Below, piece by piece: positions 3,295-18,369 of a stretch of DNA of 37,426 nt (position 1 is the first letter of the stretch; each line of letters begins with the position of its first letter). The translations under genes and the position numbers were made by a program. Source of the stretch: a virus. The notes under the pieces were generated by a model. The model did not search any database. It was not told the DNA's origin and saw only the letters and a list, made by a program, of their open reading frames with translations. The DNA is taken from IMG/VR virus record IMGVR_UViG_3300031251_000064, positions 1 to 37,426 of that record. One strand, given 5' to 3'.

Positions 3295-3723
3295 TTATTT
3301 ATAATTTTTTGGAATTATTGTGCTAGTAACTTTTGGGTTTTTGTAACTTCCCGAATAGACTAGTAGTTTTTTGTCGCAGCATAAAATCCAATATTTTACT
3401 TTTCTCTTCCAATCCTGCGTGTTTGTATCGCCCTTAGCCTCAACGTAGTATTGTTCTTTGGTGTTTGTGTCTTCAACAAAGAAATCAGGAATATAACCGA
3501 GAAGTTTTTCGCTGCCTTTTACTTTAGAAAATGGAGATGTGAATAAAATATTATTGCTGTCTGCAAAGAAGTTGAATTTTATTTGCCTGTCAAGAATAAT
3601 ATTCTCTTTATTATTATAAAACTTATTAGCTACAGCGGCCTCTAGCTTGCTTGCGTAATTATATCCGTCTAATCCCTTAGACCTACAAGAGTTAAACTTA
3701 TTCCTTCTCTGCCACATCTTCAC
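3295..3723 (-). CDS. PD-(D/E)XK nuclease, Holliday-resolvase/DUF1064-like
   Basis: 142 residues. Glu28 in ASKLEA, Asp80 in GYIPDFFVED and the pair Glu95-Ala-Lys97 in YYVEAKG give the ordered E...D...ExK signature of small PD-(D/E)XK nucleases. DUF1064 proteins and phage T7 endonuclease I-type resolvases have this arrangement. In a recombination module the natural job would be cutting branched DNA such as Holliday junctions; that is inference. Length is normal for the group. Its start overlaps the upstream gene by 26 bases. Confidence 0.78.
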   Translation of the reverse strand: MKMWQRRNKFNSCRSKGLDGYNYASKLEAAVANKFYNNKENIILDRQIKFNFFADSNNILFTSPFSKVKGSEKLLGYIPDFFVEDTNTKEQYYVEAKGDTNTQDWKRKVKYWILCCDKKLLVYSGSYKNPKVTSTIIPKNYK

Positions 3724-4081
3724 TCTTTCCTAGAATCTTAAATATTTCCTTCAATGATTCTTTTCCAGTTTCGCTTGTTAAATTCTTATTAGACTTTTTG
3801 TATTGATCTTCCCACTTCTCTTTTTCTTCTTGCATTTTAGCTTCTATCTTTATTTCCATAAGAGTAGAGCTAGTAATTAATTTTATGTTGTAGCATTTTT
3901 CTAGGAAATCTTTAGTAACATTTTCTTTCATTTCAAGAAGAATCTTCATCTCTCTATTACTAAATACAGGAAGTCCTTCTACTGAGCTTCCTTCTCTATC
4001 CGATAACCAGTATTCTTTATCAATGAGCTTAAATCTAAGTTTCTTCATCAGAGGCTGAAAGTTTAATTTAGTGTTTTCCAT
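3698..4081 (-). CDS. Hypothetical protein, 127 residues, coiled-coil C-terminus
   Basis: First gene of the leftward arm. ATG at 4079-4081 with a modest GGTGA site. The N-terminal half includes LMKKLRFKLIDKEYWLSDRE; the second half (about residues 75-127) is rich in Glu and Lys with a likely coiled coil (MQEEKEKWEDQYKKSNK). Not recognised. It overlaps the nuclease gene by 26 bases, suggesting coupled expression. No clear promoter was found between it and the structured region at 4112-4690. Confidence 0.72.
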   Translation of the reverse strand: MENTKLNFQPLMKKLRFKLIDKEYWLSDREGSSVEGLPVFSNREMKILLEMKENVTKDFLEKCYNIKLITSSTLMEIKIEAKMQEEKEKWEDQYKKSNKNLTSETGKESLKEIFKILGKSEDVAEKE

Positions 4082-4582
4082 GTTTCACCGCGTCAATGTT
4101 TTAATAAAGCTAGCACCTTACCCTGTACTGTATTCAAGTGCCTTCGTGTTGTTAAAGCGTCCAGTAGAGATAGAATGTTTTGCGCTATCAGAGTACAGGT
4201 TCGAGCCTGTTGTCCAAGCCTCTCTGTAAGGCTCTAAGGTTTTGGCTATTCCCCTTCGTCTATTCCGAAGTGTCAATTCTATCCCTAGTGCATGCTTTAA
4301 CCTAATCTTGGCGGTGCATTTCCAAAAAGCATCCATCCAAAGGCAAAAGTCTGAGCCAACGCAGCTCTTGAATCCTATTTCTAGTCTCATTGGAATATTT
4401 CGAGTGGGACAACTACTGATGCTATACCCTGAAAGAGCGCAGCCATTCATCCGTGCTGATCTTCCTAGTTTTGGGAGCGCCCGAATCCTTAACGGAATGC
4501 CCCATCCCTTACCTTTTATCCAATTCCACATATTTAGTGGTACTTCTTAGTTAAAGAGTGAAGAAATATAGATTCTCTGCGC

Positions 4583-4611
4583 TTGACAAACTTGGATCTA
4601 ATGGTTTAGAT
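4583..4611 (+). promoter_or_regulatory. Sigma70-like promoter upstream of a terminator
   Basis: TTGACA (4583-4588), 17-base spacer, TTAGAT (4606-4611). A transcript starting near 4618 would end at the terminator at 4644-4690, giving a short RNA of about 60-70 bases. It could also be a coincidental match within the larger RNA. Confidence 0.45.
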
Positions 4612-4643
4612 TAGACACAAGTTGTTGTTCGCACTTCCAACTT

Positions 4644-4690
4644 AAGCCCCAAGCACTAAAAATGCAAGGGGCTTTGTCTTTTTATTTTAA
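4644..4690 (+). terminator. Rho-independent terminator, rightward
   Basis: Stem AAGCCCC (4644-4650) pairs with GGGGCTT (4668-4674), extended by GCA/TGC inside, and is followed by TGTCTTTTTATTTT. It marks the 3' end of plus-strand transcription through the non-coding region and insulates the first rightward gene from it. Confidence 0.88.
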
Positions 4691-4714
4691 ATATATGATT
4701 TTATTATTGAACTC

Positions 4715-4748
4715 CTAGCTCTTCACACCTCCTTGTGTTCCGAGCTAG
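4715..4748 (+). promoter_or_regulatory. Hairpin exposing an anti-Shine-Dalgarno sequence
   Basis: CTAGCTC (4715-4721) pairs with GAGCTAG (4742-4748); an inner ACAC/GTGT stem (4725-4728/4735-4738) closes a loop CTCCTT. The stretch CACCTCCTT (4726-4734) equals the core of the 16S rRNA 3' end on the plus strand; on the minus strand the loop reads AAGGAG. No T-run follows on either strand, so it is not a standard terminator. It may be an operator or an RNA element. Confidence 0.5.
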
Positions 4749-4798
4749 TTGTAGGTGTCTAGGTAATTAAATTAAACCACATTATTTTAAATTAGCTA

Positions 4799-4826
4799 TT
4801 TACTTGTATAACAAATGTGCTATACT
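4799..4826 (+). promoter_or_regulatory. Promoter of the first rightward genes
   Basis: TTTACT (4799-4804), 16-base spacer, TATACT (4821-4826), about 22 bases before the ATG at 4848. A similar promoter (TTTACA, 16 bases, TACACT) lies before the gene at 6220. The -10 box overlaps an in-frame upstream ATG at 4815, which therefore cannot be the start used from this promoter. Confidence 0.75.
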
Positions 4827-4847
4827 ACGCTACAAGGAGAAATTAAC

Positions 4848-5114
4848 ATGAAAAAATTAGTAAAAGTAGAAGAAGTAATCGGCGAAGGTCTAATAGGATT
4901 AATCGGTGAAACAGTAACTCTGTTTTGCTTAAATTATATCTATACTGGAAAACTCGTGGGAGTAAATGATAGCTTTGTAAAACTAGAAAAGGCAAAGATA
5001 GTTTATGAAACGGGTGCATTTTCAGATAAAGAATTTAAAGATGCTCAACCACTTCCAAACGATTGGTATGTACAAACTGGTGCAATTGAATCATTTGGTA
5101 TTTTGAAAGTTTAA
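4848..5114 (+). CDS. Hypothetical protein, 88 residues, first rightward gene
   Basis: The start is set at ATG 4848, behind AAGGAG (4834-4839); an earlier in-frame ATG at 4815 lies upstream of the promoter -10 box and lacks a ribosome site. The protein (MKKLVKVEEVIGEGLIGLIG and on) is beta-rich in appearance. The segment GETVTLFCLNYIYTGKLVGV, followed by NDSFVKLEKAKIVY, resembles an Sm/Hfq-like or KOW-like small barrel that binds RNA or other ligands, but the match is too loose to name. It is directly under the 4799-4826 promoter and is probably expressed early. Confidence 0.78.
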   Translation: MKKLVKVEEVIGEGLIGLIGETVTLFCLNYIYTGKLVGVNDSFVKLEKAKIVYETGAFSDKEFKDAQPLPNDWYVQTGAIESFGILKV

Positions 5115-5115
5115 A

Positions 5116-5250
5116 ATGAAAAGATCTATTAAAAATAAACATAGGTCAGGGTCAGGGTCAAGGTCAAGGTCATGGTCAAGGTCATGGTCAGGGTCAGGGT
5201 CATTGTCAAGGTCATGGTCAGGGTCATGGTCATGGTCATGGTCAGTATAA
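5116..5250 (+). CDS. Small Ser-X dipeptide-repeat protein, 44 residues
   Basis: ATG 5116-5118 to TAA 5248-5250, one base after the upstream stop. After a basic start (MKRSIKNKHR) the rest is a dipeptide repeat in which Ser alternates with Gly, Arg, Trp or Leu, built on the hexamer GGTCAN. All three forward frames are open through the repeat (the others would give Gly-Gln/His or Val-Arg/Lys), but only this one has an ATG start. The ribosome site is weak (GAAAG), so translation may depend on coupling. Whether the protein or the DNA repeat matters is undecided. Confidence 0.5.
   Translation: MKRSIKNKHRSGSGSRSRSWSRSWSGSGSLSRSWSGSWSWSWSV
5144..5244 (+). repeat. Hexanucleotide tandem repeat GGTCAN
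   Basis: About 17 uninterrupted units of GGTCA followed by G, A, T or (once) a variant unit. The fifth and sixth positions vary in a non-random run (CAG, CAA, CAT). The array is in frame as dipeptides in any reading frame and could vary in length by slippage without causing a frameshift. Confidence 0.9.
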
Positions 5251-5269
5251 TTTTTAAGGAGAATCACTT

Positions 5270-5548
5270 ATGTACTTTGGAAGAATAGAACGAAGAATAG
5301 GTTCAAGATGGGTTTCACAAGATGATGACTCTAAGAAGTGTGCAGATATAGAAGATGCTCAAAAAGAACTTACTTCTCACTTTGCTACCATATGCAACGA
5401 AGAGTACCTTACTGAAGGTCAATCAGTCCTTTTCAGGTTGCAACTTTGTCAGAAAACAATACTATACCCAGATGATTCTTTCGATTACTCTGTTATAGAA
5501 TCAAACAACAAAGAACTTTCGCTAACTAAGAGAATCACTTCCCTATGA
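5270..5548 (+). CDS. Hypothetical protein, 92 residues
   Basis: ATG 5270 behind AAGGAG. The sequence begins MYFGRIERRIGSRWVSQDDD and has no recognised domain. The stop overlaps the next start by four bases (ATGA at 5545-5548), so the two genes are coupled. Function unknown. Confidence 0.75.
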   Translation: MYFGRIERRIGSRWVSQDDDSKKCADIEDAQKELTSHFATICNEEYLTEGQSVLFRLQLCQKTILYPDDSFDYSVIESNNKELSLTKRITSL

Positions 5549-15483: not shown

Positions 15484-17492
15484 ATGGCAGTAGCACCAGT
15501 ATATGCAAATAGTAGCAACCAGATTGCTGCATTGAAAGAATTGTACACAGACGATAAAGATTACATGAAGAACATCGTTAAATAGCGTAGACGATGAGTA
15601 TTTTCCTGAAACTGTACGCAAAAAATCCAGCGTTGGCAATGTTCCCAAAGAACGAGTCACCGGACGGGTTTGCGGGAAAATACATTCCGGTATAAGTAGT
15701 TGAAATTACTAGAGAAGCCGGAATAAAATTGGGCAATATCGGGGGAAGCTGAAATGTCAATCCCGAGGTAAACTAAGTGAATAAAAACACATAGTCACCG
15801 TAGAGCGTAGTGGATGAAACTAACAAGTTATGTTAGAATATAAGCCGCCAAGAGTGCCCGACACTCAAAAGGAGTGAAAATGTACGCCGAACTTGAACGA
15901 ACTTGTAAAGATTGTGGAATTAGTAAATCAATTTCTTTATTTACATCTTCTGGGAATAGCGCATCCGCCAGATCAAGAGCCAAAAACTTTTGTCACGAAT
16001 GTCAGAAGAAAGTCGGTAAAGAAAGAATGAAAATATTCCGCAATAAATATCCCGAAAAAATAAGGGATTCTAAGTTAAAAAGTGTTTATGGATTAACTCT
16101 AGCAGAATACGAAGAGAAATCCAAAAAACAAAATGGTGTTTGTGAAATATGCAAAACGAAGTCTAACCGAAAAAACGGAGTGACTGGAAAGCCAGAAAAC
16201 TTAGTAGTAGATCATGACCATAAAACAGGATTGGTCAGAGATTTATTATGTCACAAGTGTAATATGGAAGTTGGTATAATTGAGAATAATTTACCAAGAC
16301 TTTTAAATTACTTAAATAAGTTTAAGAAGTAGGGGATAAAAAGCCACTACGATAACAAAATTGTCCTCTAGAATACGGTAACCCAGCGGGTCGAGCACAC
16401 GTATTTGCTAACGCACAGAATCAGCAAACTGCTTCTAGCGTAGTAAGTTACTTTGTGTACGCCGTTCAGGACTACCAACTCGTAACAATCACTAATCTAT
16501 TGATGGAACAAACCAAGTCTAATGCTGGCGCATTCGTAGACGAAGCTAGCCGCACACTTGATAACGGTTTCCGCAATATTTCTAACAACATGGCATTCGA
16601 ATTGTTCTTCGGTGGTACAGCTTCTCGCGGTATTATCGGCAGTGTAACAAGCTTGTCTGCTGGTGTATTGACATTCGTACTTAGCAACCCACAAACAGTT
16701 GTACAATTCGAAGTTGGTATGGTTCTCCAGAACTCTACAACTGACGGTGGTGCAGCTCTTCTTATCGGCGGTACAGTAATCGACGCAGTACAAATCACTG
16801 CTGTAAACCGTGGAACTGGTTCCATTGTTGCAACAGTAGTTCAAGGTGATGGTACATCCTTCACTGCTGGACACTTTGTACAAATCTTGGGAGACATTGG
16901 ATCTGCCGGTGCAACTACAATCGCAGGTCTTTTAGGATTGAGCGGTTTGGCTGCATGGGTTCCTGCTAGTGATCCTATTAGCTCTGATAACTTCTGGGGT
17001 GTTAATCGTTCTGCTGATCCAACTCGTTTGGGTGGTTTACGTTATAACGCTGCTGCTCAAAGTATCTCTGAAGGTATTACTAACGCTCTCGCATTCGGTA
17101 ACCGTGAAGGCGCGGCTTTCGATCTAATCATATTAGACTTCGTAAGCTACAGCACTCTGATTAACGAACTTGGAGCCAAAGTACAATACGTACAACTTGA
17201 GCATGACGAAGTAGAAGTTGCTTTCGAAGCAATCCACTTCCATAGTGCTTATGGTAAGATCCCAGTATTGGCCGATCGTTCGTGTCAGGCTCAAACAGCT
17301 TGGTGCTTGACTCTCGATACATGGAAGCTACGAACACTCGGTAAAGCTCCACATATCCTTACTTACGGTATGGAGGGCCTCGAAGGCTTGCGTGTGGGTA
17401 ACGCGGATGCTCTTGAGATACGCGTGGCTTATTATGGCAACGTGATAAATTCAGCCCCAGGTTTTAATATGGTTGTTGCTTTAAGCGCTTAA
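15484..17492 (+). CDS. Major capsid protein, interrupted gene
   Basis: Reconstructed as three exons: 15484-15579, 15615-15691 and 16364-17492, giving 433 residues. Exon 1 encodes MAVAPVYANSSNQIAALKEL through NIV; exon 2 encodes YAKNPALAMFPKNESPDGFA and GKYIP; exon 3 starts PLEYGNPAGRAHVFANAQNQ. This matches the N-terminal pattern of HK97-fold capsid proteins from podovirus-like phages (LYTDDKDYMK...VYxKNPALA..PK...GKYIPVPL.YG). Gap one is a 35-base element with a stop codon (TAG 15583-15585); gap two is a 672-base group I intron with an endonuclease gene. Unless both are removed or skipped, no full capsid protein can form. A rightward terminator follows at 17509. RBS AAGGAAT. Confidence 0.9.
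15580..15614 (+). other. 35-base coreless group I intron-like insertion in the capsid gene
   Basis: The element starts after exon T15579 and ends in G15614, as group I introns do. Its segment GACGATG (15590-15596) pairs with the exon 1 end CATCGTT (15573-15579), with a G.U pair exactly at the splice site (P1). The adjoining GCGTA (15585-15589) pairs with the start of exon 2, TACGC (15615-15619) (P10). Thus 12 contiguous bases form a guide to the ligated exon junction. Nothing resembling the catalytic core (P3-P8) is present. Removal restores the frame exactly. It also contains TAG (15583) and an in-frame ATG (15594). Confidence 0.85.
15692..16363 (+). ncRNA. Group I intron with endonuclease gene
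   Basis: 672 bases. P1: exon ATTCCGGT (15684-15691) pairs with GCCGGAAT (15717-15724), U.G at the splice site. P10: CTAGAG (15709-15714) pairs with CTCTAG of exon 3 (16366-16371). The P4-P5 region with CGGGGGAAGCT and TCAATCCCGAGGTAA is typical of phage group I cores. CGTAGTGG (15806-15813) and CCACTACG (16344-16351) form an eight-pair helix, likely P7, across the endonuclease gene. The intron ends in G16363. Splicing joins codon GT|T (Val). The inner hairpin CTAAC/GTTAG (about 15820-15836) may be P8. Confidence 0.92.
15880..16332 (+). CDS. Intron-encoded endonuclease VII/HNH homing endonuclease
   Basis: 150 residues from ATG 15880 behind AGGAG (a GTG six bases upstream is less likely). N-terminal zinc pairs (CKDCG, CHECQ), then YGLTLAEYEEKSKKQNGVCE-ICK, LVVDHDHKTGLVRDLLCHKC and NMEVGIIENN. 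The D-H-D-H core with flanking CxxC pairs is the recombination endonuclease VII (His-Me finger) signature. Such enzymes make intron-minus alleles competent for intron invasion by cutting the capsid gene. A GAGTG/CACTC hairpin just upstream may mask the ribosome site. It is related to the free-standing genes at 19188 and 21008. Confidence 0.9.
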   Translation: MYAELERTCKDCGISKSISLFTSSGNSASARSRAKNFCHECQKKVGKERMKIFRNKYPEKIRDSKLKSVYGLTLAEYEEKSKKQNGVCEICKTKSNRKNGVTGKPENLVVDHDHKTGLVRDLLCHKCNMEVGIIENNLPRLLNYLNKFKK

Positions 17493-17557: not shown

Positions 17558-17586
17558 TTGCTATTGAGATGATTTGTGTGTATAGT
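17558..17586 (+). promoter_or_regulatory. Sigma70-like promoter of the GIY-YIG gene
   Basis: TTGCTA (17558-17563), 17-base spacer, TATAGT (17581-17586). Transcription would start around 17593, at or next to the ATG at 17594, so the message could be leaderless; no Shine-Dalgarno sequence is seen. It lies between the capsid terminator and the gene. Confidence 0.6.
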
Positions 17587-17593
17587 AATAAAC

Positions 17594-18301
17594 ATGAACA
17601 TATACAAGTTGAAAAATAAAATTAACGGCAAGATCTATATCGGACAAACAACACAAACAATCAGACAAAGGATTAGGGGTCATGTAAATAATTCTAGATT
17701 TGGATCTAAACTTCCAATTCATTGCGCTATTAGAAAATATGGGATTGATGGATTTATCATAGAAGAAATTGCTGAAGCAAAAACAATAGATGGATTAAAT
17801 GAATTAGAAATTCATTATATTAAGATTCTTAACTGCTTGGTTCCATATGGCTATAATTTAACCAGCGGTGGAAAAAATTATAAAAAGCATCAAGAAACAA
17901 AAGATAAGATAAGGATTGCAGCAAAAAAAAGAATGGCAGCAGATGGAGGAAAACAATTAAGAGAAGCCTTAGAAAAAGCACACCAGGCACGAATAGGACA
18001 ATCTACTTGGAATAAAGGTTTTAAAACATCAGCAGAAGTTTGTCTTAAGTTATCAGAATCACATCTAGGACAGAAACCATGGAATAAGGGAAAAACAACT
18101 TCGGAAGATGTAAAAGAAAAGCAAAGGATTGCGAAGTCTAAGATCTCAAAACCTGTTAAATGCTTAGAAAATGGCAATAAATGGGATTCAATAGAACAAG
18201 CATCAAAATCAACTGGAATATCAACAACTCATATTAAAAGACTTATAGCATCTGGTAAAAAATCTGGAATAGGTTTATCGTTTAAATATATTTGCGTCTG
18301 A
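17594..18301 (+). CDS. GIY-YIG homing endonuclease with NUMOD motifs
   Basis: 235 residues from ATG 17594 (MNIYKLKNKINGKIYIGQTT); an upstream GTG (17576) would lie before the -10 box. Order of domains: GIY-YIG nuclease (residues 1-90; NIYK...KIYIG pair, Arg27/Arg29 region, YG near 54, Glu78-type acidic segment NELEIHYI, NLTSGG); NUMOD3-like repeats (STWNKGFKTS and KPWNKGKTTS); a C-terminal IENR1/NUMOD1-type HTH (KPVKCLENGNKWDSIEQASK ... ISTTHIKRLI). It is free-standing, not inside a recognised intron. Its 3' end overlaps the tRNA-like sequence by nine bases. Confidence 0.9.
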   Translation: MNIYKLKNKINGKIYIGQTTQTIRQRIRGHVNNSRFGSKLPIHCAIRKYGIDGFIIEEIAEAKTIDGLNELEIHYIKILNCLVPYGYNLTSGGKNYKKHQETKDKIRIAAKKRMAADGGKQLREALEKAHQARIGQSTWNKGFKTSAEVCLKLSESHLGQKPWNKGKTTSEDVKEKQRIAKSKISKPVKCLENGNKWDSIEQASKSTGISTTHIKRLIASGKKSGIGLSFKYICV

Positions 18302-18369
18302 CCTAGCTTAGTGAAAGGGCCGAACTGTTAATTCGGATTAGCTTGGTGCAAAACCAAGAGACGCAGCCA
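18293..18369 (+). tRNA. tRNA-Asn (GTT)-like gene with encoded CCA
   Basis: 77 bases fold as a cloverleaf: acceptor TGCGTCT/AGACGCA (seven pairs), D-stem CCT/AGG, anticodon stem CCGAA/TTCGG with loop CTGTTAA (anticodon GTT, Asn), variable ATTAG, T-stem CTTGG/CCAAG with loop TGCAAAA, then discriminator G and CCA. The first nine bases are also the last codons and stop of the GIY-YIG gene. It is atypical: position 8 is G rather than U, the D-loop lacks the GG pair, and the T-loop is TGC rather than TTC. It could be a degenerate or tRNA-like element. Confidence 0.68.

Follow-up and report, generated by a model that had tools for sequence, protein, structure and literature searches.

The DNA analysed here, hereafter the window, is a viral record of IMG/VR of 37,426 bases. 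A leftward block of genes occupies the - strand before 4.1 kb and encodes recombination proteins. Its first gene (3698-4081) codes for an unknown protein and is followed by genes for a Holliday-junction-resolvase-like protein, exonuclease VIII and Erf. The first gene of the rightward operon (4848-5114, + strand) encodes a small protein, and the terminase (about 9.5-10.9 kb), portal (12.6-14.5 kb), capsid and tail genes are also rightward. The small protein resembles the DUF6948-type gene of the related locus L002; its likeness to the DUF6948 family was judged by eye, a Pfam search being without match. Region 4112-4690 lies in the gap separating the leftward recombination operon from the rightward operon, so that its location in a divergent region, as given by an earlier note on this DNA, is correct. 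The portal and capsid genes have many close relatives in IMG/VR (71 loci; in the capsid, the first 152 residues are about 93% identical), which makes the phage a member of a well-represented group. The structural genes are well conserved across relatives, and the early region is a mosaic.

The region was also correctly described as richer in G+C than its surroundings: it has 42.8% G+C versus 31.9% at 3295-4081 and 35.0% at 4691-5548. This value stands at the 98th percentile of 579-nt windows whose start lies within the first 9 kb, and at only the 84th percentile over the whole window.

Within its 579 nt, the region holds an open frame of unusual length, 137 codons on the - strand (4118-4531), which could be an orphan protein gene standing first in the leftward operon. 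The stop-free run of 142 codons that contains it was reached in 0.1-0.5% of shuffles (P 0.001-0.005), and the frame lies on the same strand as the next leftward gene, 36 nt before it. Its composition nevertheless argues against coding. Its codon score was lower than that of every gene tested, codon position 2 has more G than position 1, opposite to the phage's own genes, the 137 residues comprise no Gln and a single Val, and the amino-acid score is the same as for shuffled DNA. Ahead of the frame, no ribosome-binding site was seen, and no relative of its product was detected in Pfam, PHROGs, GenBank phages, IMG/VR or genome contigs. The fold predicted for the product was disordered (pLDDT 31.7), a value obtained from a single sequence and uninformative alone. 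The frame was thus judged not to be a gene, an orphan gene being very unlikely, and the region is probably non-coding. The absence of coding signals agrees with the earlier statement that no plausible gene is present, a wording that was too strong for a region with a frame of this length.

Folding energies were compared with those of dinucleotide shuffles (1000 shuffles for the modules) and expressed as z values. In a scan by 150-nt windows, two places were distinct from the background, for which 250 windows of this genome were used. The first, module A (4151-4301), consists of small hairpins flanked by the arms of an imperfect inverted repeat of 26 nt. Its arms (4151-4176 and 4276-4301) are complementary at 22 of 26 positions and lie 99 nt apart, the best inverted repeat in 300 shuffles reaching 19 of 26, and the hairpins that they enclose have 5-bp stems and 6-7-nt loops. 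The second, module B (4585-4678), consists of a closing stem GACA/TGTC around three hairpins. The z values were -4.17 on the + strand and -5.51 on the - strand for module A, and -3.56 and -4.85, respectively, for module B, both modules folding at or beyond the level of 1 in 1000 shuffles. Between module B and the candidate rightward promoter, a dyad CTAGCTC..CACA/TGTG..GAGCTAG (4715-4748), assigned to no strand and a candidate leader hairpin or operator, gave z values of -5.62 on + and -6.35 on - when folded as 4712-4750.

The middle stretch (4302-4584, no strand assigned), which is 283 nt long and makes up about half of the region, showed no excess structure (G+C 43.5%; z -0.64 on + and -0.95 on -). 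The one long-range helix predicted there (about 4360/4580) is not clearly above chance, the segment 4355-4585 having z values of -1.26 and -1.78. For the whole region, z was -1.8 to -2.2 on + and about -3 on -. Taken part by part, these values describe modules that fold separately and are joined by an ordinary stretch. Several of the local stems reported earlier are present, but the excess structure of the region is limited to its two modules. Perfect hairpins with at least 5 bp and a 7-nt loop numbered 3 for 0.56 expected (P=0.01), further hairpins with 7-base loops appearing only when G-U pairs or internal loops are allowed. Module A, module B and the dyad all fold better on the - strand, though they fold on both, and we tentatively assign the modules to the - strand on this preference, which is not decisive. 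The count of G-U pairs favours the - strand for module B (2 on -, 0 on +) and is nearly even for module A (4 on -, 5 on +).

At the end of the region, where a rho-independent terminator had been proposed, an intrinsic-terminator-like hairpin was seen by eye and in the folds of the + strand (4644-4684). It reads AAGCCCC-AA-GCA(CTAAAAA)TGC-AA-GGGGCTT and is followed by the tail TGTCTTTTT. The hairpin proper (4644-4674) has an outer stem of 7 bp, five of them G-C, and a 3-bp inner stem. It was absent from the output of a consensus terminator scan, which its internal loop probably explains. No terminator facing leftward was seen, so that no attenuation switch is evident.

Promoter-like sites were scored as matches out of 12 to the sigma-70 consensus, whose rules may not apply in the host of this phage, and all arguments drawn from them are weak. 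The best + strand site, TTGACA-18-TAGATT (4583-4612), scored 10/12 and is itself weak, since 7% of shuffles hold an equally good one. Its predicted start, 4619, is exactly the first base of the stem-loop that abuts the terminator hairpin. The putative RNA of about 66 nt read from this fold (4619-4684, + strand) would comprise the stem-loop AAGTTG..CAACTT, the terminator hairpin and a U-rich tail; alone, it folds moderately above shuffles (z -2.05 on +). On the - strand, the candidate leftward promoter or promoters at 4785-4814 combine a -35 box TTGTTA (from 4814) or TATACA (from 4810) with a -10 box TAAAAT, a consensus match of 9/12 with a predicted start at about 4775. An alternative leftward site, TTAACA-17-TACAGT (4127-4155), also scored 9/12; its predicted start at about 4120 lies downstream of all modules and would exclude the region from the leftward leader. 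Rightward transcription has a candidate promoter in TTTACT-16-TATACT (4799-4826, + strand), which carries TG ahead of its -10 box and has its predicted start at about 4833, just before gene 4848-5114.

The earlier note proposed that the whole region is one large structured RNA and named ROOL and GOLLD as possible identities. ROOL has a length similar to that of the 580-base region. When Rfam was searched with the whole window at the gathering score, no family matched, and a search of 3900-5000 with permissive filters at E<=10 returned nothing except a chance snoRNA-type match outside it. These searches with Rfam models do not support ROOL or GOLLD. Both are phage-encoded RNAs of unknown function, ROOL being found in phages and prophages and GOLLD being large, with many members exceeding 800 nt and a universally conserved 3' region, and both often lie near tRNA islands in phages (PMC12286853). 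The region is like ROOL in its folded hairpins, its phage location and its length; it differs by the lack of an Rfam match, of a tRNA island and of structure in the middle. The difference from GOLLD is the lack of a covariance-model match, together with the size above 800 nt and the conserved 3' region of many GOLLD RNAs. The tRNAs that had been supposed nearby were not found either: a tRNA/tmRNA search of the window detected no tRNA island and a single tRNA-Asn, at 18293, 13.6 kb away.

A single non-coding RNA of a new class could still be encoded on the + strand (about 4112-4685, about 575 nt, ROOL-sized). Its size, a G+C content above that of the flanks, structured modules at both ends, a terminator at the + strand end and the probable absence of a gene inside are consistent with such an RNA. 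Within module B, the loops GGTTTAG and CTAAAAA share a 5-nt complement and could kiss, a weak point since the complement is too short to count. The whole-region z values on the + strand are nevertheless small and the modules fold better on the - strand; the middle does not exceed chance and, being unstructured, fits poorly with one ornate RNA. No + strand promoter-like site of at least 8/12 was found upstream of 4112, leaving a 575-nt transcript without an evident start, and the best + strand site would instead give the RNA of about 66 nt. The failure of every search described below to find a relative of the region also counts against a large RNA. For these reasons the unity of the region as one large RNA was not borne out, while its secondary structure is real. 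We consider a new ROOL-sized class doubtful. In its narrower form, a structured RNA of about 575 nt of a class absent from Rfam and restricted to one phage lineage, with no relatives in the collections searched, it is unlikely; beyond size and local structure, nothing speaks for a new class of large RNA. Should the region produce one large RNA, a new class would join the few large RNAs of phages whose function is unknown. More generally, being non-coding, richer in G+C and rich in stems is insufficient for calling an ornate RNA, and the strand, the promoter, the middle part and the relatives should be checked.

Relatives of the phage were fetched through its terminase, portal, exonuclease VIII and small rightward gene, giving over 100 loci. 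Neither blastn, nhmmer nor covariance models recovered a copy of the region among them, including in phages with a capsid about 93% identical. blastn against GenBank phages and plasmids gave no homologue of the region, and scanning genome contigs for the terminase returned no match. Covariance models built from the single sequences of A and B detected no further copy in 0.98 Mb of phage DNA, most of it related, and neither module has a second copy elsewhere in the window. The strongest DNA match was of 19 bases in one record, with an E value of 7e-4 for that genome, which is at chance level over 45 records. Among gaps of at least 300 nt, nothing comparable was present in nine relatives read nearly whole and in G003 (32.9 kb), read in large part.

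L002, whose terminase is 59% identical, has a syntenic non-coding gap of 950 nt that also lies upstream of the DUF6948-type gene. The words CATTCATCCG..GGAGCGCC shared by the two gaps made it a candidate homologue, which was rejected: alignment scores equalled those of shuffles (P 0.43-0.69), an equally long pair of words occurs on the opposite strand, and a search of all IMG/VR for the pair returned L002's own record and four chance matches, all within long open frames. The DUF6948-like gene was likewise rejected as a marker of the RNA, the DNA upstream of it being coding in most of the other places where it occurs and resembling the region in none.

The lack of detectable conservation, with the region absent from relatives whose structural genes are very similar, is what would be expected if this part of the mosaic early region were neutral or in decay, its inverted repeats having no function. 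This is rather improbable in view of the folding of A and B, at the limit of 1000 shuffles or beyond, and of the terminator-like hairpin at one end. A further explanation is that the region acts as DNA and not as RNA, through operator inverted repeats or a replication origin, or that it keeps the trace of a small inverted-repeat insertion. Folding of the modules on both strands and the dyad adjoining the candidate promoters agree with it, and so do the palindromic repeats in the divergent gaps of some relatives; for the inserted element, module A would be a unit of 151 nt with 26-nt ends. A repeat search, on the other hand, found no iterons or clearly repeated operator words within the region, and A encloses nested hairpins. 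The missing second copy of A or B also speaks against an element of DNA, as does the absence of a target-site duplication around module A by eye. We regard it as improbable. In two distant relatives, the divergent gaps are strongly folded (L087 6436-7164, z -6.1; L080 1347-1906, z -5.7); by eye, their palindromic repeats and terminator-like hairpins are those of ordinary control DNA.

Lying between divergent genes, with three elements that fold non-randomly, a terminator-like hairpin and no known RNA family, region 4112-4690 is best explained as the control region of a tailed phage, flanked by two divergent operons. Our preferred reading of it, held with less than even confidence, is a structured leader of the leftward operon together with a short antisense RNA, an arrangement comparable to that of the lambda OOP RNA. 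Leftward transcription from about 4775 would pass the dyad at 4715-4748, then B, then A, before reaching the gene that ends the gap at 4081. With three folded elements ahead of the first leftward gene, the region would give the recombination operon a long, structured 5' leader. The presence of a rightward terminator in a divergent gap calls for a rightward transcript to end, and the + strand RNA of about 66 nt, starting near 4619, would form two stem-loops and end with the terminator 4644-4684. As an antisense RNA of the leader, it could base-pair with the leader transcript and reduce leftward expression, in the manner of lambda OOP RNA on cII. We infer transcription of either strand, the start positions and the interaction of the two RNAs from these predicted features.

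OOP is a small RNA with its own promoter; it ends at a terminator hairpin and overlaps a phage transcript that runs the other way (PMC5869508). What we propose for 4619-4684 is an arrangement of the pO-oop-tO kind, with the difference that the overlap of OOP is with the end of cII, whereas the RNA proposed here would overlap a leader. Promoter, transcript and target are predicted, and no relation in sequence to OOP is claimed. The leader and antisense RNA are favoured by the folding of A, B and the dyad, which beat shuffles and are all better on the - strand, and by the strongly folded divergent gaps of some related phages (L087, L080). Against them count promoters that are 9-10/12 consensus matches, close to chance, the rival leftward promoter (4155-4127) downstream of all modules, and the length of the leader, about 690 nt. 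The lack of a leftward terminator and of homologues in which conservation could be checked also counts against them. If present, the leader and antisense RNA would be a further case of RNA control in the divergent switch region of a phage.

Some observations were made elsewhere in the window and in related phages. Directly after the small DUF6948-like gene, a short frame (5117-5255) consists of GGTCAN hexamer repeats. In L052 (2962-3189), a small DUF6948-like gene 75% identical is accompanied by a similar GGTCAN-type repeat in another context, and L002 (1907-2170) has a Gly-Asp/Tyr/Asn version of the repeat frame. The contig end of L002 (1-150) carries tandem repeats with a unit of roughly 60 nt (GTGCATCGAGCTTCGCTGTGCCATACACG..). 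The only tRNA found, tRNA-Asn GTT (18293-18369), contains in its start the end of a GIY-YIG homing-endonuclease gene (within 17576-18369); L087 also has a tRNA-Asn GTT.

The major capsid gene (15484-16646) shows two interruptions relative to the uninterrupted genes of L020, L029 and L021. Between residues 58 and 59 is inserted an endonuclease VII/HNH-type gene (15874-16332), and the same insert gives a weak match to a group I intron (15667-15905), which at 19.3 bits and E 0.03 falls short of the gathering score. After residue 32, an insert of about 35 nt (about 15580-15614) causes a frameshift and brings in a stop codon, which lies within a CATCGT/ACGATG hairpin; this insert could be an assembly error, the sign of a disabled gene or a bypassed segment. 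In L046, L033, L041 and L031, the capsid gene is also split, at sites that are similar or different (near residues 50-58 and 104), which suggests repeated gain of introns or inserts in the capsid gene of related phages. Finally, the three strongest + strand fold signals among the background 150-nt windows (15901, 16201 and 19201) fall within endonuclease-type genes, as if these genes carried structured elements.
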